Positions 71 to 14,957 of a stretch of DNA of 64,000 nt are shown in pieces. The position numbers were made by a program, and so were the translations under genes. Source of the DNA: Phycisphaerae bacterium (GTDB lineage: Bacteria > Planctomycetota > Phycisphaerae > Tepidisphaerales > Tepidisphaeraceae); NCBI GenBank assembly GCA_025924315.1, contig JAICIO010000015.1, positions 1-64,000 of the forward strand, in the 5' to 3' direction. Below the pieces are notes generated by a model that was not told the origin of the DNA, did no database searches, and saw nothing but the letters and a program-made list of their open reading frames with translations. The first letter of the stretch is position 1; every line of letters begins with the position of its first letter.

Positions 71-1888
71 TCAACGCCGGCTCTGCTTCCGTTGCACCAG
101 CAGCACGCCGTTCTTTTCGTTCACGAATGGCGGATATCCGAAAAGCGCCGTCTCCCCATTCGGCTTTGTCATCGGTTCATAATTGACGGACACCCAGTCC
201 CAGATCTCCTGACCGTAATCTCGTCCAAAGAAGCGCTTGCCGTATTCGATGTTGTCGACGTGCACGAGCGCGATCACGTCCGGCGGATGGGCCTTCAGAT
301 TTGCGACGATGTTGTCCTCGCCGTACATGATCAGGTTCGGCAGCGTGAACTGGTGATAGATGGTCGGATTCACGCGGCGCGTGAGGTAGTTCAGCAGAAA
401 ACCTTCCGGCATCGCCACGAGCGTTTGATTGGGTTGCGTGTGCTCGAGGAGAAACTCGGACGCGTCATTGAGCATTTTCCCACGGATATCCGCCAGGAAC
501 GCATCCCCGCCGGCGGAAACGACGTACTGCTTTTTCTTCAGATAGACGAAATCGACGAGGAAGTGTTGCCCGATGGCGACGAGGATCAGGGCGATCCAGA
601 TCGCACGCACGAACTCCGGCGATCCGCCGCGCGCCTTCACAATGCGGACGCTCCAGTACACAACCGCGTTGATCGTGAGCAGCGTCGCGAGAAGGGACAA
701 CGCGAAGCCGTAATGGACCGCGCGAACATTCCACAGGATTTTCCCGAGCAGCGCGCCGGCGAAGATCACCAGCATGAAGGGCAGCGCCAGCCGCGCGATC
801 GCCTCGCGATCGTGCCAACGTCGCACGATCAGCACGATCAGCGCGATTCCACCGCCGGCCATGAACAATTGCACCGGCCGGATGAAGTTCGGCCACTGGA
901 TCTTCATCCAAATGAACCAGAATCCGACGACAACCGCCAGCGCGGAAGAAATCGAGATGATCAAACGCGTGCGGCGCGCTGGCGGAAGCATCTGTGCGAT
1001 GGCTGCGATGACCGCTGCGATGACGCAATACACGCCTGCCCAAAGCAGCGTCGTTCCGATGTTGGCCGCCAGATGATCCGTGCCGTTGATCAACTTGAAG
1101 TATGGGTTATCGAGGAGCTCGCGATTGCCGAGCCATCGCCAGGAACCCTCCAGCGCGAGCACGACCTCATGCGTTGGAAGAAACGACCGCAACAGCACGA
1201 ATGCGATGATCGGCGGAACAATCGCGGCGATGAGGAACAAGACGCTCGTCAGCCATCGTCGTTTATGATCGGCGTCCGATCGGAGGACGACGATCATTCC
1301 TCCGATTGCGGCGAGCAGCGCCGCGAGAAACACTTCCGCCTTCGTCAGAAAGACCAGCCCGAGCAGCGCACCCGCCAGGATCGACCAACCCATGTTTCGT
1401 CGGCGCGAGAGCATCCACAGCGCGCCGATCATGCCGATGCTCAGCAGAATCCCATGCGTCAAGTCGTGCGAATACGGCGTGATCCAGTTGAAATTCGCGA
1501 CGTAGTTCAGCTGCCCGAACGTGAAGACGAACGGCATGAGCGCAAGTGCGATTGTCGCGGACCACCGATCGCCGATCTCCAGCAGCATGCGATAAAGCAA
1601 CGCCGTCATCCCCATCGCCAGCACGAGGTTCGTGATCGTCAGCGTCGACAAACTCACGCCGAAGATTTTGAAGACGAGCGCGTTGAAGTACGGCGAAAAC
1701 GGGCCATTGAAATACGTGAAATCGCGATAGAGGTGCTGCCCTTCGGTGATGCGCCAGGGCATGTAAATCTCGCGGCCGAAGTCGATCACGGGATCGGGCG
1801 CGCGGCCCCAGAACCAGAGCAGCATGACGAGATTCGCCACGAGCACCAGCGCAGGCCCGGCCCATTTTGCGTACGCGGGTTTAGTCAT
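71..1888 (-). CDS. GT-C-type membrane glycosyltransferase (GT39/PMT-like)
   Basis: A 605-residue polytopic membrane protein with about a dozen hydrophobic segments. The first periplasmic loop carries acidic residues in PDPVIDFGREIYMPW (D36, E40), the place where GT-C enzymes keep their catalytic aspartate. The family moves a sugar from a polyprenyl-phosphate donor to an acceptor outside the membrane; donor and acceptor here are unknown. About the last 140 residues form a soluble tail with NLIMYGEDNIVANLKAHPPD, nearly repeated in the upstream gene, so the two are tandem duplicates. The ATG overlaps the upstream stop by eight bases (ATGACTAA), which indicates translational coupling. The family call is inferred from topology and the loop motif. 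Confidence 0.75.
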   Translation of the reverse strand: MTKPAYAKWAGPALVLVANLVMLLWFWGRAPDPVIDFGREIYMPWRITEGQHLYRDFTYFNGPFSPYFNALVFKIFGVSLSTLTITNLVLAMGMTALLYRMLLEIGDRWSATIALALMPFVFTFGQLNYVANFNWITPYSHDLTHGILLSIGMIGALWMLSRRRNMGWSILAGALLGLVFLTKAEVFLAALLAAIGGMIVVLRSDADHKRRWLTSVLFLIAAIVPPIIAFVLLRSFLPTHEVVLALEGSWRWLGNRELLDNPYFKLINGTDHLAANIGTTLLWAGVYCVIAAVIAAIAQMLPPARRTRLIISISSALAVVVGFWFIWMKIQWPNFIRPVQLFMAGGGIALIVLIVRRWHDREAIARLALPFMLVIFAGALLGKILWNVRAVHYGFALSLLATLLTINAVVYWSVRIVKARGGSPEFVRAIWIALILVAIGQHFLVDFVYLKKKQYVVSAGGDAFLADIRGKMLNDASEFLLEHTQPNQTLVAMPEGFLLNYLTRRVNPTIYHQFTLPNLIMYGEDNIVANLKAHPPDVIALVHVDNIEYGKRFFGRDYGQEIWDWVSVNYEPMTKPNGETALFGYPPFVNEKNGVLLVQRKQSRR

Positions 1889-3704
1889 TCTTTTGCATCA
1901 GCAGGATGCCGAACCTTGGCTCGCCATTCGGGGATTCTTCGAACGGGCGCTGACCGATCAGATGCACCTCATGATAGTTCTGCTTTACCCAACGGGCGAT
2001 GTCGCGCCCGTAATCCTTGCCGAAGAACGGTGCGCCGTACTCGACGTTGCGAATGTGCACCAGCCCGATGTAATCCGGCGGACGCGCCTTCAGATTGGCG
2101 AGCATCTTGTCTTCGCCGTACATGATCAAGTTCGGCGGGGTGAACTGCGAATAGCGCGACGGGTTCACGCGCCGCGAAAGATAATTCGCGATCAGTCCCT
2201 CCGGCATCATCGTGAGCGTTTTTTCTTTCGGAATCGACTGCAGATCGTCCAGCAGCTGGTCGAGCGCCGCCCCACGACCATCCGCGAAGAAACTGTCGCT
2301 GCCCGTGCCGACCGGTACGAACATCGTCTGGCTGTTCTTCCAGGTGATCTGCGCGTGCACGATGAGCATCGCGACGAGCAGACCGATCGAAATGAATCGC
2401 AGCGGCAGCCCGACGATCCGCGGAAGCCAGCTCACCATTGCGACGACGAACACGACAAGTCCCGGCATGGCGAGGCCAAAACCGTAATGCAACAGCGAGA
2501 CGTTGAACGCCATCTTCGCGAGCATCAGCCCGCCGAAGAGAACGAGCAGAATGCGCAGCAGGATGGTCTGCCTGACACTGACGTCAGACGTGCATCGCCA
2601 GAGGTTTCGCGAGAACCAGACGAACGCGATGAGCAGCACAAACGGCAGCGGACGGAGAAACGTGTCCCAGTGAATCCAGGGCGACGCGCCGAGCACGATC
2701 GCGGCAAATCCGATGGCGGTGATGAACGAGCTCAACAACGCACGTTTGGGTTCGAGCGTGGCGATCCCCCACGCGATCAAGACGATGGCCGCATAAACAC
2801 ACATCCAAGTCAAAGTCGACAACAGATTCTGTCCCAGATGTTCCGTCCCGAGAAGGCTTCGGAAGTAGGGCAACTGCATCAATCGTGAATCACCGACCCA
2901 CGGCCATGATCCCGCCAGACCATGAAGAGCGGTGGTGGTCGTGGACGCATGCGCGAGCAGCGCGAAAGCGAGGATCACGGGAACCATTGCGGCGACGACA
3001 AAGCAGGCAATATTGATCGCCAGCTGACGCGACCGCGCGCGAATGACCCAATGTGCGACGCAAAACCCAATCAATGCGGTAATGCCAGCGGCGAGGAACA
3101 CCTCCGCCTTCGTCAGGAAAATGCATCCGAGGAGCAATCCCGCCAGCGCGCTCCACAATGGTTTGGGCGGCCGAATCAGGCAAGCGATCATCGCCAGCGA
3201 CATCACCAGTCCGTGCGTCAGTTCATGCGAGTAGGGCGTGATGAAATTGAAATTGGCGATGCCGGTTCGATGTGCGAGTGCGCAACAGATCAAGAACGCA
3301 CAAGATCCTGCGGTCGCCCCGACGTGATCGGAGGCGCGCAGTAGAAGCCGATAGAGCAGCACTGTCGCGAGGATCACGATCAGCAGATTCACTGTCGTGA
3401 TCGTCTGCAGGCTCGTGCCGAAGATCCTGAAGACGAGCGCGTTGACGTATGGCGAGAACGGTCCGTTGAAATACTCGATGTCGCGATAGAGCACGTCGCC
3501 GGAATTGATCCGCCACGGGATGTAAACCTCGCGTCCGAAATCGAGCACCGGATCCGGTCCGCGGTTCCAGATGATGAACGTCATCGCGAGGAAAACAAGC
3601 GCGACGATGATCGGGCCGAGATAGGAACCGCCAAGGCGCCAAGACGCCAAGGAAGGCGACGGCTCAACCTGCTTTCTTGGCCTCTTGGCGTCTTGGCGGT
3701 TCAT
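1881..3704 (-). CDS. GT-C-type membrane glycosyltransferase, tandem paralogue
   Basis: A 607-residue membrane protein homologous along its length to the downstream gene (shared YFNGPFSPY, PDPVLDFGRE, NLIMYGEDKMLANLKARPPD). It likely transfers a lipid-linked sugar; the substrate is unknown. The ATG at 3704 and about the first 27 codons lie inside an inverted repeat (3625-3702), so the charged N-terminus is element-derived and not shared with the paralogue, whose similarity begins near SYLGPI. An in-frame TTG at codon 19 is an alternative start. The ATG lies 6 bases after the stop of the preceding gene, with no clear Shine-Dalgarno sequence. An operon of the secreted TIM-barrel gene and both glycosyltransferases is likely. 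Confidence 0.75.
   Translation of the reverse strand: MNRQDAKRPRKQVEPSPSLASWRLGGSYLGPIIVALVFLAMTFIIWNRGPDPVLDFGREVYIPWRINSGDVLYRDIEYFNGPFSPYVNALVFRIFGTSLQTITTVNLLIVILATVLLYRLLLRASDHVGATAGSCAFLICCALAHRTGIANFNFITPYSHELTHGLVMSLAMIACLIRPPKPLWSALAGLLLGCIFLTKAEVFLAAGITALIGFCVAHWVIRARSRQLAINIACFVVAAMVPVILAFALLAHASTTTTALHGLAGSWPWVGDSRLMQLPYFRSLLGTEHLGQNLLSTLTWMCVYAAIVLIAWGIATLEPKRALLSSFITAIGFAAIVLGASPWIHWDTFLRPLPFVLLIAFVWFSRNLWRCTSDVSVRQTILLRILLVLFGGLMLAKMAFNVSLLHYGFGLAMPGLVVFVVAMVSWLPRIVGLPLRFISIGLLVAMLIVHAQITWKNSQTMFVPVGTGSDSFFADGRGAALDQLLDDLQSIPKEKTLTMMPEGLIANYLSRRVNPSRYSQFTPPNLIMYGEDKMLANLKARPPDYIGLVHIRNVEYGAPFFGKDYGRDIARWVKQNYHEVHLIGQRPFEESPNGEPRFGILLMQKND
3625..3702. repeat. Inverted repeat of CCAAGACGCC type, over a start codon
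   Basis: Arms 3625-3650 and 3677-3702 match at 24 of 26 bases and are built of repeated CCAAG-type words. The right arm ends on the ATG of the glycosyltransferase at 3704, so the element is translated as that protein's N-terminus. From memory, similar intergenic repeats are common in planctomycetes and other phyla; a genome-wide count would confirm this. Confidence 0.7.
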
Positions 3705-6450: not shown

Positions 6451-9400
6451 TTAAGCCGGAGCGGAAGTCGCCTGTTTCCGTCGTCGCACGATCTTCCAAC
6501 CCACCCAGATCAAAAGCACCCACGGCGCGACGAGACACAGGCCAATGATGATCAGCTGCAAACTCCAGAGAAGTCCGGAGACGCTCGTCGCCAGGCCATT
6601 CCGAATCGTCGCCCAAAGCCCGTGATCCGCGCCCACAATCTGTTCACCGCTCGTCAATGTGAGATCGATCGTCGCGCGGGCGAGCGGGCCATCCGGCGCC
6701 TGCATGTTCTTCGACGATTGAATCTCGCGCACTTTTCCTTGCGCGCGGATCGCGTCGATGATCGCGCCCGCCTTGGCAAGCGGAACTTCGATGCGGGCGC
6801 GGGCGGTGCTTTGGCCGGAAGCATCTTTTGACACACCCGAATCCGCGACGCGACCGCTCGCGGCTTCGACGGCGGCGGTGATCTGGTTCAGGCCTTGCTC
6901 GACGTCGGAGGTTTCGATCGTCACGCCTGTGCTTTGCCGCGGCGCAATGCGGTCGGCGTCGGTCAGCGAAATCTGCCAGTGCAGCTTGCTGTCCAGCGTG
7001 TTTTCGTTGTCGGTTGAGCGCGTGACGGTGCGGTTGATGATCTGGCCCTGGCCCGCGAGGATCTTCTCGAACTCCGCCTGCTGCTCGCGCTTCAGCTCGA
7101 CCGTCATCGTCGCGGAAACATTCTGCGGATCGACCTGGTTCATTTGCGATTCGATCACGCGGAGGTTGAGCGTGTGGGCGGAATCCAGAATCGCGCGATA
7201 GCTGGTCGGCACATCCGGCGTGGCGATGCTCATCGTCTCCGCCTCGCGCGCTGCCGCGACGGCGGTTGACACGATCTGCACACTGAAGCCGCGCTTGGTT
7301 GTCGTGACGTTGGCGGTGTCGGTGTTTTCCACGACGGTCATCTTCATCGCCTCGCCCTGCATGCGCACGTCCTGCAGCACGGCTTCGGCATCCGCCGATT
7401 TCGTTTCGAATTGGATCGTGCCAGTGGTCTGGTCCGGTTTGGCGCGGTTGAGATTGCTGCTGACCACGCGGCCGTTTGCTTTCTCAATGCGCGCCAGAAT
7501 CGCGTTGTACGACTTCTCGACGTCGTCGCTCGCGAGGTTCAGGTTCACCGTCTGCCGCGGGGCGACGTTCGCGAGGTTGTAGAGCGACACGTTCAGCCGT
7601 GTGTCGCCGCGCTCGACCTTAAGGCCATCTTTCACGACGACATCACTCGGCGATGTTTGCTTGCGCTCGATCTCCAGGCGGGCGACTTTGCCCAGTTGTT
7701 TCAGCCGATCGATCACAGACCCGGCTTGATCGGGCGCCACATCCGCGACGATTTTCGCGGCGAATTGGCCGGCTTCGAACTTCTTCAGCTCGCTCTCGAC
7801 GACGCGGCCCTTGGCGTCTTCGATCGCCTTCAGCGCGTTCGTCCGCGCCGTCTCAACATCCTCCGCCTCGACCCCCATCTGCACATCTTCCGTCTGCTTC
7901 ACTTCAGCGGTCTGCCGAATGTCGCGCTCGAAGAGCGAGAGGTTCAGCGTCGCCATCGCGACGAGGTTGTTGTAGTAGTTGATCTCGCCCTGCACCTGCT
8001 CGATCTTCTCCCGCCACGTGCCGAGCTCCTTCTCCGCGGCGAGCAGATCTTTAATCGCGCCTTTGCCGTTCTTGATGAGATCAAGCAAGCGCTCCTGCAT
8101 CGCCTGAGCCGCGCGCAGCTCGCTCTGCAGATCGTTGTATTGCTTGGTGACGTCGTCGGCGGTCAGGTTCTGCCGTTTCAGATCGCCGAGGCCGCGCAGC
8201 TTGAGCACGAGAGTGTCGAGATGATCCGGCGGAACGCGCAGCGTGATCGTGCCCTTCACCTTTCCATTCGGCAGCTTCTCCGAAGTCGTCGTGCCGATGA
8301 ACCCGCCTTCTTCGCGCACGATTTTCGAAACGGTGACGACGGCGTTGTCGAAGCTGTCGATCTCGAACTCCATCGTGCCGTTGCGGATGATTTTGCGATC
8401 GGAAGGCTGAGATGTTGCGGGCGGCGCGGGTGGCGTTGTTGGCGCAGGCGCCGGCGTCAGCGCCGGCGTTTCCGGAGCCGCGACAGCCGCGGGAAGCGCC
8501 TGTTTCGCGTCGACCGTGACTGTACCATTGACGGCGGCCGCGGATTCCTGCTTCTCTGTTCCCTCGACTGTCTTCGCCTGGCTTTGCTGGCCTTGCTGGC
8601 CCTGCTGTCCCTGGCCTTGAGTTTGTGAACCGAGCTGCAACGCCACTTCCTTCGGCTGTTCGCGAAGCTTGTCCTGCGCATCCGGCGCGCTCGTGCCCGA
8701 AACCGGTTTGAAATAGTTGTTCGCCTCCGCCGTGCGTCGCGTGTAAATCGAATCGCCTTGCTTTGAGACAAACGGGCTCTGAGTGAAGGCGACATGGCCG
8801 TCGCCATACAGGACGTTTTGCCCTTCGCGATCGCCAGCTGCTGGCATATTCGCCGACTGTCCACCCGCGCCTCTCCCGGCGTTCTGTTGCGGCGGGTTGG
8901 AAGGGCCGGCTTCCGACTGCGTAACGATTCCACGGAACTGCCGGCCGTTTGTCACATTCCCGTATGTGAAACGATTCGCCGGCTGGCGTTTTGAATTCAT
9001 GTCGCCGGCGACGGCGTAGTCGGAGGAGAGATTCTTGTTCATCTTCCTCGCATCGCCGTCATAGTCGTACGCAAAGTAGCCATAACTGCCTTTGTTCTCA
9101 TTCGCCGAAAGCTGCGTCGCGGCTCCGATTTGCCGTAGATCGCTCGCGGTTTTCCCGATTTGCGCGTCGGCCCAGAGCGTTGGGATCTCGCCGCGACTCA
9201 TCAGATCGGTGGCGACATAACCAAACCCGCCCATGACGATCACCGCCGCCGTAGCGAGCGCGGCTTTCCGTATCCCGGGATGAATCGTCGGGAATTTGAA
9301 CACTCGTCGACGATGTCGATCGGTTCGCAGACGCTGCACCAGTCGATCTTCGAATGAGCTCGACGGCGCGACACCCTTAAAGAGATCATTCAGTCGCCGA

Positions 9401-9555
9401 TCATCGCTCGCGGCGGCTTGCAGCTTCGCGGCGCAATCTGCACACGTTGCGCGATGCGATTCGAATCGCGCAAGGTCCTCGGCTTCGAGGCCTCGCGACA
9501 AATACGCCGCGATCTGCTCTTCAAACCAGATGTGATCGTTTTCAGTCCGTGTCAC
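6451..9555 (-). CDS. ECF anti-sigma factor fused to prepilin-like and DUF4349-type domains
   Basis: A 1034-residue membrane protein. The chosen GTG at 9555 overlaps the sigma-factor stop as GTGA; the longer open frame just reads through the sigma gene. Domain order: zinc-finger anti-sigma motif H34-x3-C38-x2-C41; one membrane helix at about 98-118; a prepilin-like stretch (SDLRQIG 138-144, ANENKG 151-156, NVLYGDGHV 247-255) resembling the body of the prepilins at 12.6-19.8 kb but without their N-terminal helix; a Gln/Ala/Pro-rich linker at about 300-386; a DUF4349-like domain from about 387 to 590 with coiled coil; further DUF4349-like repeats to about 990; and a second helix near the C-terminus. 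It probably holds the cognate sigma factor at the membrane and senses an envelope signal. The domain combination is unusual. Confidence 0.8.
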   Translation of the reverse strand: MTRTENDHIWFEEQIAAYLSRGLEAEDLARFESHRATCADCAAKLQAAASDDRRLNDLFKGVAPSSSFEDRLVQRLRTDRHRRRVFKFPTIHPGIRKAALATAAVIVMGGFGYVATDLMSRGEIPTLWADAQIGKTASDLRQIGAATQLSANENKGSYGYFAYDYDGDARKMNKNLSSDYAVAGDMNSKRQPANRFTYGNVTNGRQFRGIVTQSEAGPSNPPQQNAGRGAGGQSANMPAAGDREGQNVLYGDGHVAFTQSPFVSKQGDSIYTRRTAEANNYFKPVSGTSAPDAQDKLREQPKEVALQLGSQTQGQGQQGQQGQQSQAKTVEGTEKQESAAAVNGTVTVDAKQALPAAVAAPETPALTPAPAPTTPPAPPATSQPSDRKIIRNGTMEFEIDSFDNAVVTVSKIVREEGGFIGTTTSEKLPNGKVKGTITLRVPPDHLDTLVLKLRGLGDLKRQNLTADDVTKQYNDLQSELRAAQAMQERLLDLIKNGKGAIKDLLAAEKELGTWREKIEQVQGEINYYNNLVAMATLNLSLFERDIRQTAEVKQTEDVQMGVEAEDVETARTNALKAIEDAKGRVVESELKKFEAGQFAAKIVADVAPDQAGSVIDRLKQLGKVARLEIERKQTSPSDVVVKDGLKVERGDTRLNVSLYNLANVAPRQTVNLNLASDDVEKSYNAILARIEKANGRVVSSNLNRAKPDQTTGTIQFETKSADAEAVLQDVRMQGEAMKMTVVENTDTANVTTTKRGFSVQIVSTAVAAAREAETMSIATPDVPTSYRAILDSAHTLNLRVIESQMNQVDPQNVSATMTVELKREQQAEFEKILAGQGQIINRTVTRSTDNENTLDSKLHWQISLTDADRIAPRQSTGVTIETSDVEQGLNQITAAVEAASGRVADSGVSKDASGQSTARARIEVPLAKAGAIIDAIRAQGKVREIQSSKNMQAPDGPLARATIDLTLTSGEQIVGADHGLWATIRNGLATSVSGLLWSLQLIIIGLCLVAPWVLLIWVGWKIVRRRKQATSAPA

Positions 9556-10118
9556 TGTGCGGTGTCCTTTGTCATTCGATCTCGGAGCATCCTGATTCCA
9601 CGATGTAGGAGCCCGCGCAACGATCCGTTCGACATCGCCAATTGACTCGCGATCGCTTCGTAATCGGCTCCGCCGATGTAACGAAGCATCAGCGGGATGC
9701 GGTATTCCTCCGGCATCGAGCGCAGGATCGACAGCACGCGCTGGCGCTCGTCTTCCTGCTCGAGCTGATCCGGCGGAGAGGGGGATCTCGACGCGATCGT
9801 CAGCAGCGCGTCCCCCTCTTGTTTCGCGCCGCGTCCTCGCTTCTTTCGCGAATCGTGTCGGGCAGCGTCGATCACGATGCGCTGGGCGATCGTGTTGAGC
9901 CAGCTGTGAAAGTTCTTCGCGTCGCTCAGCGAGCGGATCGATCGCCACGCCTGCAGCATCGTTTCCTGAACCAGGTCCTCCGCTCGGTGCGTGTCGCCGG
10001 TTTCGAGGTACACGCGAGCAAATAACCACCGCGCCGATCGGCGAACCAGCTCTTCAAAAGCGGCTTGGTTCCCGGCCTGGCTCTGCACAACGAGCGTTTG
10101 ATCGGACTCGCGATTCAT
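9552..10118 (-). CDS. ECF-type RNA polymerase sigma factor
   Basis: A 188-residue sigma-70 family protein of extracytoplasmic-function size. Region 2 shows AEDLVQETMLQAWRS, for -10 recognition and core binding. Region 4 shows MPEEYRIPLMLRYIGGADYEAIASQL, the helix-turn-helix for the -35 element. The linker is basic (RKKRGRGAKQ). The TGA overlaps the GTG of the anti-sigma fusion gene, so the pair is translationally coupled. It should direct RNA polymerase to a small regulon once released; its targets, and whether it is autoregulated, cannot be read here. Confidence 0.92.
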   Translation of the reverse strand: MNRESDQTLVVQSQAGNQAAFEELVRRSARWLFARVYLETGDTHRAEDLVQETMLQAWRSIRSLSDAKNFHSWLNTIAQRIVIDAARHDSRKKRGRGAKQEGDALLTIASRSPSPPDQLEQEDERQRVLSILRSMPEEYRIPLMLRYIGGADYEAIASQLAMSNGSLRGLLHRGIRMLRDRMTKDTAQ

Positions 10119-10232
10119 GCGGTTGTCACAGGATTAGACGACGGTCGTGGAAATTCGTCGCGCGAAAAATTCGGCGCTGGCAGATGAAGCATGGCGCGCG
10201 ACGATTAAAACCGTCTTTCAATGGAGGTCGAT

Positions 10233-10450: not shown

Positions 10451-12460
10451 TTATTCTTCAAGGTTTAGCCACTTCATCTCGCCGTCAGTCAATTCCACGT
10501 CGAGAGCGGGTAAGCTCGTGTGCAGCTCATAGAGGGTGCGAGGTCCGATCAGCGGGAATGTTGGGAACGGTTGAGAGAGGACGTAGGCGAGGGCGATGTT
10601 GATCGGCAGAACGTTTTTCTTTTCTGCAAGCTCATTCACCCGCGCGAGGCGCTGAAAGTTGTCTTCGCTGTACCAGCAGCGAGAAAGCTCCGCGTCGGAG
10701 CGGTCTTCGGGTTTGGCTTTTCCGGGGAGGAAGAAACCGCGGGCCTGGCTCGACCAGGCCAGCAATGCGATCTGGTGTTCCTTGAGCCACGCGCGCGATT
10801 CGGCATCCGATGCCGCGATGCATCCGCCCCAGACCGGATCGACCATCCGCGCGAGGCTGAAGTTGTTGCTCACGACGCTAAAGCCTGTGAGGCCTTTCGA
10901 TTTCGCGTACTGGTTTGCCTCCGCGACGCGGTCCACGGTCCAGTTGCTGCCACCGAAGGCGTTGATTCGGCCGGCCTTTTTGTGCTCGTTCAGCACGTCG
11001 ATGAACTCACCCACCGGAATCTCGAGATTGTCGCGGTGCATCATGTAGATGTCCGCGTGATCGAGCTGCATTCGCTCAAGGCTCTGGATGAGCTGGGCCG
11101 TAAGATCCTTCGGATTACACGCGGGCGAGTGGGCGCCTTTGCAGATGACGTTCACTTCACCGCGCACGTTGCGGTTCTTGATCCAGCGGCCGAGAAGTTT
11201 CTCCTGCAACCCGCCGCCGTAGATGTAGGCGGTGTCGAACGTGTTTCCGCCGCGCTCGAAATAGTCGTCGAACATCACCGATGCGTGCGCGAGCGTGGTT
11301 TGATTGTCGACGCCCATCACCAGCCGCGCGACCTGCTTCTCGACGCCGGCGATCTTACCGTACTTCATCTTCGCGCCGGATTTGTGGGCGAGCGGTTTGC
11401 GAGAGACGGTCGGAATAACCGCATCCATCTTCTCCGCTTCGTACTGTAATCCGATCTGCGCGCGCCACATGTCGAGCGCCTTCATGTTGCCGAGCGTGTC
11501 GTTCCAGCTCATCGCGGGTGAAGGCGCCTGGCGCTTGTCGAGATTCGCTGCGACGGTGTCGGCTTCGATCCCGTAGATCTGCTGCGAGGTTTCAACGTTG
11601 ATGTGGGTCGGAGCCTTCTCGCCGCGCTTGTGCAGCGTAATGGTGACCGTCCCACCATCGCGCGCGGGCACCCACGGCTGCGGGACATGAATCCACCCTT
11701 CGCTGCCGTAGATGCGCAGCGAGTTATCCTGATTCGCCTGCACGCCGGTTGCCAGTTGTCCGACGATTCCGCCGGGGAATTTGGCGCTGGCGATCGCGTA
11801 GTGATCGACGCCGCTCGGACCCAGCTCGCCGACGGCTTTGAACTCAATCGGCTCGGCGAAATCTTTGCCCGTCGCGACACCTGCGATCAATCGCGACATC
11901 GACACGGGATAGCAGCCGACGTCGAGAATCCCGCCGCCCCCGAGCGCGTTGTTCGTCAGCCGGCTCGTGTCGTTGAAGGGGATCGGCCAGTGGAAGCTGA
12001 ACGTCGCTTGAATCACGCGCACATCGCCGATCGCCTTGTCGCGAATCAGTTCGACGAGCTTGTGCGTCTGCGGATGGCAGCGATACATGAACGCTTCCAT
12101 CAGGAACACGTCGTTTTCGCGTGCGGCTTCGACGATCGCCATGGCCTCGGCGTGATTCAGGCCGATCGGCTTTTCGACGAGCAGATGTTTCTTCGCCTCG
12201 GCGCCTTTGATCGCCCATTCGGCGTGCATGGGATGCGGCAGGGCGATGTAAACGGCTTCGACTTTCGGGTCGTCGAGCAGCGACTGGTAGCTGGCGTGGC
12301 GATTGGGGACGTTGAATTGATCCGCGAATTTGTTCGCGGACTCTTCCGACCTGCTTCCGACCGCGACGAGCGTGCCGGTTTTTGAATGGGTTACGCCCTG
12401 CGCGAAGGCTTTAGCGATGGCGCCGGTGCCCAGAATTCCCCAGCCGAGTTTTCCTGTCAT
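10451..12460 (-). CDS. Fused Gfo/Idh/MocA oxidoreductase and aldo-keto reductase
   Basis: A 669-residue two-domain enzyme. Residues 1 to about 330 are a Gfo/Idh/MocA dehydrogenase: Rossmann motif GILGTGAIAKAF, then EKPIGLNHAEA, where the Lys of EKP is the usual catalytic residue. Residues from about 345 on are an aldo-keto reductase barrel lacking the usual first strand, with NTFDTAYIYGGG (active-site Asp and Tyr), CKGAHSP and an SNWTVDR strand. Both families use NAD(P)(H) on sugars or polyols, so the fusion may couple an oxidation with a reduction on one substrate; that is inference. It is cytoplasmic, transcribed alone, with no obvious operon partner. Confidence 0.88.
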   Translation of the reverse strand: MTGKLGWGILGTGAIAKAFAQGVTHSKTGTLVAVGSRSEESANKFADQFNVPNRHASYQSLLDDPKVEAVYIALPHPMHAEWAIKGAEAKKHLLVEKPIGLNHAEAMAIVEAARENDVFLMEAFMYRCHPQTHKLVELIRDKAIGDVRVIQATFSFHWPIPFNDTSRLTNNALGGGGILDVGCYPVSMSRLIAGVATGKDFAEPIEFKAVGELGPSGVDHYAIASAKFPGGIVGQLATGVQANQDNSLRIYGSEGWIHVPQPWVPARDGGTVTITLHKRGEKAPTHINVETSQQIYGIEADTVAANLDKRQAPSPAMSWNDTLGNMKALDMWRAQIGLQYEAEKMDAVIPTVSRKPLAHKSGAKMKYGKIAGVEKQVARLVMGVDNQTTLAHASVMFDDYFERGGNTFDTAYIYGGGLQEKLLGRWIKNRNVRGEVNVICKGAHSPACNPKDLTAQLIQSLERMQLDHADIYMMHRDNLEIPVGEFIDVLNEHKKAGRINAFGGSNWTVDRVAEANQYAKSKGLTGFSVVSNNFSLARMVDPVWGGCIAASDAESRAWLKEHQIALLAWSSQARGFFLPGKAKPEDRSDAELSRCWYSEDNFQRLARVNELAEKKNVLPINIALAYVLSQPFPTFPLIGPRTLYELHTSLPALDVELTDGEMKWLNLEE

Positions 12461-12608: not shown

Positions 12609-13604
12609 TCACCAGAAAATCGGCTTGTTCAGCGCGCCGTTTCCCCAGCCGGGTTGCACTTCGTCCGGTGCGGGGCTCGGATTGATGTAGAGGTTTCCTT
12701 GGGGATTGAAGCTGCTGATGCGCGGGCGCCGCGATTCGGCATGACCGTCGCCGAAGAGTTCGTTGATCCAACCGTTCATGGGCGTCTTGCCCTTGCCGTG
12801 GAGGAACGCGAAGCCGTACGTCTGCTGTACGACGTTCGTCGTGTCCTGCTGGCGACACTGATCGGCCATAATCGCTGTTTTGGGCGCCCACTTATCGCTT
12901 ATTTTCGTGACGTAGTCGTCGTGGTTATCGCCGTTTCCATTGCGGTCCCACCAGAAGCGATCGAGCTTGAGCGGCGCGGCATTGGGATTGGACGGCCCGC
13001 CACCCGGTGTGGTGCCGGTCGCGGTCGTGAAGCCGCCCGTGTAATGGCACGCGGGATAAACCGGATTCGGATCACCGAGGTAGAAATAGCGGATGAGTCC
13101 GGTGGCCGCGTAATCTTCGGGCCAGTGGGAACTGTTTGATCCACGCGCGTCGGTGTCCCAGATGTATTGCGCGGGGCAGTACATGACCATTAGATTGCCG
13201 ATCGTCCACTGCGGATTCGGGATGAGGCTACTGGTCAACCGCGTGGGCTGCCCTTGCGGATTGGCGATGCGATTCAGCGCTTCGCGCACGTCGGAATAGA
13301 AATAGTGCACGGTCGGATTCGCCGGATCCAGCGGGACGTTCATCGAATCGCCACCAGCGGAAAGCTTTGCGACGGAATCCACCACGCACGGCGGGAGGAA
13401 TCCCTTGTTCTGATTCGCGTAGATGTAGAAGAACTGCCCGCAGGTGCGGAGGTTGCTGAGGCATTGCACGCTGACCGCCTGCGCGCGGGCGGCTTGGATG
13501 CTCGGCAGGAGAATGGAGATCAACAGCGCGATGATCGCGATCACAACCAGCAACTCGACGAGCGTGAAGCCCACACAGCGCTTCAGTGTCTGACGGCAAG
13601 ACAT
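12609..13604 (-). CDS. Prepilin-like H-X-DG (DUF1559-like) protein 1
   Basis: A 331-residue type IV pilin-like protein. The ATG at 13604 is preferred over an upstream TTG because AAAGGA lies 7 bases before it. The N-terminus is a class III prepilin signal: basic leader, Gly, then [18 protein letters not shown], cleaved before Phe. The body has [19 protein letters not shown], an EF-hand-like loop [12 protein letters not shown] (12912-12947), then HGKGKTP...GDGHAES and a C-terminal [15 protein letters not shown] ending in Trp. Such proteins are probably pseudopilins of a type II-like apparatus or surface anchors; no function is proved. It is transcribed alone, with a T6 motif at 13714-13725. 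Confidence 0.88.
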
Positions 13605-13713
13605 GGCGGATCCTTTCGAGTCAGAACTCAAATCAGCGACTGCACAGAGATGTCGGGTGGGATTATGCCGAATCGATCGCGCGAAAATCTTCTCGTTTTG
13701 GGGAGTAAAGTTA

Positions 13714-13834: not shown

Positions 13835-14809
13835 TCACCAGAAGATCGGATTATTCTTCGTGCCGTTGCCCCAGCCGGGTTGAACCTCGTCGGGGCCGGG
13901 ATTCGGATTGGTGTATAGAGTGCCATCCGAATTGAAACTTGAAGCCCGCGGACGCTTGGACTCGGCGTGACCATCGCCGTAAAGCTCGTTGATCCAGCCG
14001 GACAGGGGGGTCTTACCTTTGCCGTGAAGGAACGCGAAACCAAACTGGTTCGTCACCGCCGAGTTTTGCTGTCGGCACTGGTCGGCCATGATCACCGTTT
14101 TGGGCGCCCACTTGTCGCTGGTCTTGTTCACGTACTCGTCGCGATTATCACCGCTGTGGTTCCGATCATAGAAGAACCGATCGAGCGAAGCAGGAGGGGC
14201 CGCGGGATTGATCGGCCCACCGACGGCATTGAACCCACCTTGATAGTGGCAGCTCGGATAGAGCGGATTGGGACAGCCGAGATAGAAATAACGGATGCAC
14301 CCACTGGCCATGAAATCTTCCGGCCAGTGTGAGTTGGACGATCCGCGTGCATCGGTGTCCCAGATGTATTGGGCGGGACAGTAGAAAACCATCAGATTGC
14401 CGATGTGCCACAGCGGATTGACGATCGTCCCAGGGCCGCTCGGATTCGGAATTCGTCCCCCGGGGCTGTTCGGATTGGCGATGTGGTCTAGCGCTTCTCG
14501 AATGCCCGGATACTTATACGTAACGCCTGTCGCCGGATTGAGCACGCCGGAGTTGCCGTTTTCAAGCGGGAACTTTGCGACCGAATCGTAATCCGCTTCG
14601 GGCAGGAATCCCTTGTTTTGATTGGCGTAGATCTGGAAGAACTGGCCGCAGGTTCGCAGATTGCTGAGGCATTGAACGCTCAGGGCCTGTTGCCGAGCGG
14701 CCTGTAGACTGGGCAGAAGGATTGCAATCAGCACGGCGATGATGCCGATGACGACGAGTAGCTCCACGAGCGTAAAAGCGCGCCGTAGAAACGTGAGGGA
14801 CGATCGCAT
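13835..14809 (-). CDS. Prepilin-like H-X-DG (DUF1559-like) protein 2
   Basis: A 324-residue prepilin paralogue. The ATG at 14809 (MRSSLTFLRRA) follows a GCGAGG site; upstream in-frame codons give an implausible hydrophilic start. The leader ends in Ala instead of the usual Gly before [18 protein letters not shown]. It shares [18 protein letters not shown], loop DRNHSGDNRDEY (14132-14167), HGKGKTPLSGWINELYGDGH and a C-terminal [15 protein letters not shown] ending in Trp. It is closest to prepilin 1 (same [16 protein letters not shown] stretch). It has its own upstream T6 motif and downstream hairpin. It is probably membrane-anchored, then processed by prepilin peptidase. Confidence 0.88.
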   Translation of the reverse strand: MRSSLTFLRRAFTLVELLVVIGIIAVLIAILLPSLQAARQQALSVQCLSNLRTCGQFFQIYANQNKGFLPEADYDSVAKFPLENGNSGVLNPATGVTYKYPGIREALDHIANPNSPGGRIPNPSGPGTIVNPLWHIGNLMVFYCPAQYIWDTDARGSSNSHWPEDFMASGCIRYFYLGCPNPLYPSCHYQGGFNAVGGPINPAAPPASLDRFFYDRNHSGDNRDEYVNKTSDKWAPKTVIMADQCRQQNSAVTNQFGFAFLHGKGKTPLSGWINELYGDGHAESKRPRASSFNSDGTLYTNPNPGPDEVQPGWGNGTKNNPIFW

Positions 14810-14957
14810 GTGAACCTCGCAGTAGAGAGATGCGCCGCGTGGCGGCGAAGGACATCGGCACTGGCCGAACCATCGCCGCAAAAGCCGACGGTTACGAGTC
14901 TCCGTACGTTATTCCAACCCGCCCCTTCGGTCTTCTCATCATCCGTCAGCAAAGTGA

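Follow-up and report, generated by a model that had tools for sequence, protein, structure and literature searches.

Pieces of mostly own-genome envelope machinery in the variable linker of a planctomycete ECF anti-sigma factor family

The window analysed here is the whole stretch of 64,000 nucleotides taken from a Phycisphaerae bacterium of the Tepidisphaeraceae (assembly GCA_025924315.1, contig JAICIO010000015.1). Its reverse strand carries a gene for an ECF sigma factor and, directly after it, a gene for an anti-sigma factor whose GTG start at 9555 overlaps the sigma stop by 4 bp and whose frame ends with the stop at 6451. The features of the locus are given below along with the evidence for each.

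10136..10169, minus strand: putative ECF autoregulatory promoter, TTTTTCGCGCG-N16-GTCGTCT
9552..10118, minus strand: ECF sigma factor, 188 aa (Sigma70_r2 E 1e-14, Sigma70_r4_2 6e-10, TIGR02937 93 bits)
6451..9555, minus strand: anti-sigma factor, 1034 aa (open reading frame and profile matches)
9376..9555, minus strand: cytoplasmic zinc-finger anti-sigma domain (zf-HC2), with the motif H34-x3-C38-x2-C41 at 9433-9456
9208..9264, minus strand: transmembrane helix 1, residues 98-116 (hydropathy; helix in both models)
8398..9207, minus strand: variable extracytoplasmic linker, residues 117-386, 270 aa (unalignable between orthologs; predicted disordered by AlphaFold2 with the family alignment, pLDDT about 25)
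9082..9153, minus strand: putative captured prepilin piece 1, alpha-1C (KTASDLRQIGAATQLSANENKGSY), residues 135-158
8995..9030, minus strand: putative captured prepilin piece 2, strand (LSSDYAVAGDMN), residues 176-187, colinear in the alignment
8740..8832, minus strand: putative captured prepilin piece 3, DGH hairpin (DREGQNVLYGDGHVAFTQSPFVSKQGDSIYT), residues 242-272
8695..8721, minus strand: family linker motif aromatic-(F/Y/W)-(K/R/V/Q)-P (NNYFKPVSG)
7876..8397, minus strand: DUF4349 domain and helical hairpin, residues 387-560 (PF14257)
6709..7902, minus strand: four further ferredoxin/ACT-like repeats, residues 552-634, 665-743, 768-846 and 874-949 (DUF4349 and ACT_4 sub-matches)
6475..6618, minus strand: C-terminal transmembrane helix and basic tail, residues 980-1027 (sequence; helix 980-1027 in the AlphaFold2 model)

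The first-pass annotation had coupled a zinc-finger anti-sigma motif, a membrane helix and a DUF4349-like domain with repeated related blocks to the ECF sigma factor, and all of these parts were recovered. The profile search of the protein gave zf-HC2 at E 3e-4 (21.2 bits, cut-off 22.2) and the genome search gave it at 26.7 bits, above the cut-off; the anti-sigma profile NF052375 matched at E 2e-8, yet below its own cut-off. This N-terminal domain is helical in the AlphaFold2 model (helices 3-82). By the sequence features tested, namely the Hx3Cx2C head and the sigma gene upstream, the window protein is a class I zinc-binding ECF anti-sigma factor. Its DUF4349 match is strong (PF14257, E 8e-60, 202 bits, cut-off 27.7, six stretches), and AlphaFold2 folds the extracytoplasmic part into five beta-alpha-beta modules of ferredoxin/ACT type, the first having two long helices that form the hairpin and the other four reaching pLDDT values of mostly 75-94. 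Foldseek matched the repeat modules to ACT domains and NikR with probabilities of 0.9-0.99 and E-values no better than 1e-3. The models thus predict a disordered linker and, beyond it, five DUF4349/ferredoxin-like modules, with a second helix that returns the chain to the membrane. The other zf-HC2 proteins of the window genome number only four, all with short outer parts, and are uninformative as a control.

Of 15 family loci, 12 have the promoter element (AACTTTT)CGCGCG-N15-17-(G)TCGTCT ahead of the sigma gene (shuffle mean 0.04, maximum 2), and its GTCGTCT -10 element and CGCGCG block stand ahead of sigma genes in two planctomycete classes, as would be expected of a putative autoregulated ECF promoter. 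When the motif was used for a regulon search, its genome-wide count was not above the reversed-pattern control and no match fell at the source prepilin. The sigma gene lies upstream of the anti-sigma gene in nearly all family loci whose contig extends that far, and besides it no conserved neighbour of these loci was found. A secretin or prepilin gene linked to the locus was accordingly rejected as donor, only the sigma gene being conserved as a neighbour. Elsewhere in the window, all on the minus strand, 10451-12460 holds a frame of 669 aa that looks, by eye, like a Gfo/Idh/MocA-type oxidoreductase fused to an aldo-keto reductase, and 71-3704 holds two adjacent related multi-helix membrane proteins of 605-607 aa, apparently a tandem duplication.

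The stretch following the first membrane helix had been described beforehand as a prepilin-type body, on the strength of the signatures DLRQIG, ANENKG and LYGDGHV; the first two lie within residues 135-158, and NVLYGDGHV lies within 242-272. The homology proved real and the body did not. Residues 118-304 match a prepilin of the same genome (contig C45) with E 1e-11 and 50% identity on the reported stretch, and a prepilin of G020 with E 1.5e-11; identity to L036 is 71% for piece 1 and 74% for piece 3 at the amino acid level. The scores of the three pieces were 86, 49 and 131, where shuffled sequences reached at most 44, 37 and 46. In an alignment with 18 prepilins the linker segment is colinear with them and three segments are kept, while the GFxxxE site, a core of about 110 aa with VFxCPS and the DSVLLPTD tail are missing. 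Profile searches of the anti-sigma protein gave no match to Pfam prepilin families or to N_methyl / TIGR02532, and TIGR04294 (H-X9-DG) remained sub-threshold at 12-15 bits (cut-off 19), its His being replaced by Asp; the profile check thus failed where the direct search found prepilins. AlphaFold2 run with the prepilin alignment gave alpha-1 and three short strands at a mean pLDDT of 60, and Foldseek of this model against the PDB gave no match. A prepilin or DUF1559 fusion was therefore rejected for lack of processing site and core and for profile matches under the cut-off; judged from the alignment, the stretch is three colinear fragments of an H-X9-DG prepilin and not a prepilin. The window genome has 83 prepilin-like matches, and it is a small prepilin subfamily that the linker pieces match. 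Two tandem prepilins near the locus (12609-13631 and 13835-14881, minus strand) belong to a different subfamily, without DNIYT or DSVLLPTD.

Of 26 genomes in the window's family, 9 have the sigma/anti-sigma/DUF4349 architecture, and homologous pairs were also found in further Phycisphaerae (Tepidisphaerales-type) and in Gemmataceae, including the complete chromosome of Limnoglobus roseus PX52. These relatives came from an alignment-based scan of the wider genome contigs; a scan with the single protein found none. An assembly artefact or chimera was rejected, since the window's pieces share only about 68% DNA identity with the closest prepilin of their own genome and the arrangement recurs in the single-contig G013 and in the L. 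roseus chromosome. Among the members the linker that joins the first membrane helix to DUF4349 is unalignable and varies in length (127-522 aa) and content. The motif aromatic-(F/Y/W)-(K/R/V/Q)-P recurs in 13 of 22 linkers in both orders (shuffle mean 0.4, maximum 3) and may be a cleavage or docking site.

Six-frame searches of whole genomes were made with the linkers, the own-genome searches covering part of the Gemmataceae set. Most of those examined contain pieces of extracytoplasmic machines, which are prepilin, type IV secretin, Tad-pilus CpaB, OmpA-like lipoprotein and autotransporter repeat. In the G003 linker, 106 aa share 61% identity with the type IV secretin of the same genome (E 6e-35), and 44 residues match its OmpA-like lipoprotein (E 2e-7). 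The G016 linker combines a prepilin piece of alpha-1C with two secretin pieces in colinear order. That of G013 has one secretin piece (LDIPDFSDAPNFNLQS) together with an autotransporter repeat (the sources being a secretin and giant autotransporter-repeat proteins), that of G015 a prepilin hairpin and tail and an autotransporter repeat, and those of G019 and G020 prepilin pieces; in G025 the search gave no identifiable piece. In Gemmataceae, the L168 linker (G061) holds a CpaB domain that passes the curated cut-off and shares 61% identity over 127 aa with the CpaB of its own genome (E 1e-43), with possible DUF1559-like scraps. The L153 linker has a prepilin hairpin with the GFGD signature of its own genome's prepilins, L150 a piece of an own protein that is pilin-like by eye, and L167 a segment in common with an own membrane-anchored prenyltransferase-type protein. 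The linkers of L158, L159, L163 and L167 also carry a segment DLTN.D.GL.S.L..ALP which occurs in the outer part of such a protein. Apart from the anti-sigma factor itself and weak TPR matches, the sources are all proteins that are exported or else anchored in the membrane, the matched part then lying outside as judged from the sequence. The pieces stand in frame, and where a linker has several from one source they are colinear with it; short pieces alone have marginal whole-genome E-values (G019 0.015, G013 0.014).

Two further clusters were noticed in the window's genome outside the window. L144:2004-5852 (minus strand, contig C44) encodes a BlaR1/M56-type membrane peptidase sensor adjoining a BlaI-type repressor, and its outer part likewise consists of other machines' pieces: polysaccharide-export (SLBB-like) blocks in several copies, and part of a secretin N-domain that shares 58% identity with the G003 secretin query. 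This hints that the principle of a piece-built sensor may be wider than the anti-sigma family. L146:1399-3906 (minus strand, contig C178) is a further cluster of ECF sigma factor, membrane protein and secretin-fragment protein (420 aa).

To follow the origin of the pieces, ten prepilin pieces from five lineages were ranked against 70 prepilins from 25 genomes with shuffled controls. All scored above the controls, and the own genome came first of 25 for eight, including window pieces 1 and 3, and second and third for the other two (third for window piece 2). If every gene of the pool were equally likely, the chance of four of five lineages being own-best would be near 5e-5 by our own arithmetic. 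The G003 secretin piece scored 335 against its own secretin and 235 against that of the next genome; for the secretin pieces of G003 and G013 the own genome ranked first of seven, and those of G016 were not own-best. Within a linker the pieces mostly point to a single gene. Such tracking is not what an ancestral fusion with no later exchange would leave, so capture was lineage-specific or has been refreshed by recombination, and the ranking indicates that pieces were repeatedly captured and retained in separate lineages.

For the G003 secretin piece (101 codons, 64% amino acid identity) dS was 0.93 and dN 0.23, giving a dN/dS of about 0.25 which is biased low, the piece having been chosen by similarity and the selection tests resting mainly on one linker with its ascertainment bias. 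Secretin orthologs of two genera have dS 1.52 and dN 0.41, about the same ratio, and the lower dS of the piece suggests its capture after the genus split. By branch, 18 changes fall on the G003 linker copy and 8 on the secretin, so that the copy evolves about twice as fast and is far from free; this longest piece tested looks to have been retained under purifying selection. As frame control two other frames of the G003 linker (f3 sense and r1 reverse) were searched. Apart from the linker itself, these frames matched nothing but the antisense strand of its two sources, so insertion at random, in whichever frame, is not apparent there.

Taken together, it is highly probable, as far as sequence comparison can tell, that the linkers have repeatedly taken up pieces of extracytoplasmic machines from their own genomes, in frame and colinear for each source, with the longest tested piece under purifying selection. 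As for function, we tentatively propose, somewhat short of an even chance, that the pieces mimic components or clients, the component mimicked in the window protein being an H-X9-DG prepilin. They would bind the same assembly, chaperone or quality-control partner as the real proteins; real components that overload or vacate this partner would change the state of the linker or its susceptibility to protease, DUF4349 would relay this to the membrane helices, and the sigma factor so freed would raise its own operon from the conserved promoter. No single partner is implied, because the pieces differ between lineages. The idea that the protein competes with or reports on pilin assembly, as first suggested, is plausible; the sensed signal is probably broader, since the linkers of relatives hold secretin, CpaB, OmpA-like lipoprotein and autotransporter pieces instead. 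The whole explanation, capture history and client-mimicking linker together, we regard as not far short of evenly balanced. A stronger form appears rather unlikely: that the anti-sigma factor updates itself by copying short pieces of the envelope machinery into its linker as decoys for the machinery it watches, lineages retargeting the switch among pilins, secretins, Tad pili and outer-membrane lipoproteins by swapping pieces.

A serious rival, to which we give a substantial minority of our belief, involves no sensing: a long flexible linker would tolerate in-frame fragments from illegitimate recombination, those compatible with export surviving best and decaying slowly. The free variation of linker length and content, the predicted disorder, the differences between lineages, the abundance of prepilins in the window genome and the faster evolution of the linker copy all agree with it. 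By our own arithmetic, however, a neutral copy at dS 0.93 should have dN near 0.6 and not 0.23; the two other frames tested yielded zero out-of-frame captures, and secretin, CpaB and OmpA-like genes also served as sources though they would be expected to be far fewer than prepilin genes. It seems improbable that a single ancestral prepilin fusion was eroded in each lineage, its likeness to the resident prepilin being kept by gene conversion. The alpha-1C piece does occupy the same place after the membrane helix in the window protein, G020 and G016, and the one-gene origin of the pieces within a linker would suit such a history, but the secretin, CpaB, OmpA-like and autotransporter pieces require separate captures anyway, the 3' tail, hairpin and alpha-1C are retained in differing combinations, and with DNA identities of only about 60-78% no recent conversion tract was seen.

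Regulated proteolysis is the usual release route of membrane class I anti-sigma factors such as RseA, and it lends some weight to a further reading, in our view quite unlikely, in which the pieces matter only as substrates: an extracytoplasmic protease would act on them as well as on mislocalised pilins and secretins, the anti-sigma factor being cut when this protease is free or active. The aromatic-(F/Y/W)-(K/R/V/Q)-P motif conserved in both orders could be read likewise; no site-1 or site-2 protease gene, however, was recognised among the open reading frames read near the locus. This reading is a variant of the leading mechanism, and on present evidence the two are inseparable.

RseA/RseB/DegS respond to outer-membrane protein peptides. 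With RseA/RseB-sigma-E and other class I zinc anti-sigma factors (ASDI families, PMC7406223) the window protein has in common the zinc-finger head, the membrane helix, the extracytoplasmic sensor and the sigma gene directly upstream; it differs by its envelope-protein pieces, five DUF4349-type modules and second membrane helix, and no RseB-like partner was seen. Like PilS-PilR under control of the PilA pilin (PMC6058289), it would sense the pilin pool from the membrane and adjust transcription accordingly, but PilS binds real pilin in the membrane whereas the window regulator contains sequence derived from pilin and is predicted to act on an ECF sigma factor. With DUF4349 (PF14257) proteins it shares the domain, the helical hairpin and the C-terminal membrane helix; the other DUF4349-region matches in these genomes are short open frames of about 280-450 aa, while the window protein has five repeats and an anti-sigma head. 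With planctomycete H-X9-DG prepilins (TIGR04294 / TIGR02532) the common part is the three colinear segments, without GFxxxE site, core or C-terminal tail. The first reading of the locus knew of no anti-sigma factor so arranged, and a search of the available literature found no paper describing one, nor any on DUF4349 together with an anti-sigma factor.

To our knowledge, signal sensing by planctomycete ECF anti-sigma factors is largely unknown. For each species the linker sequence points to candidate clients (prepilin, secretin, CpaB, OmpA-like lipoprotein), by which the sensed process becomes testable, and short 'prepilin' or 'secretin' matches in regulators are not necessarily misannotations. 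If true, a decoy or self-updating anti-sigma factor would be a sensor principle not described before, and the repeated capture of own-genome fragments in a signalling linker would be a new way for sensors to change their specificity.
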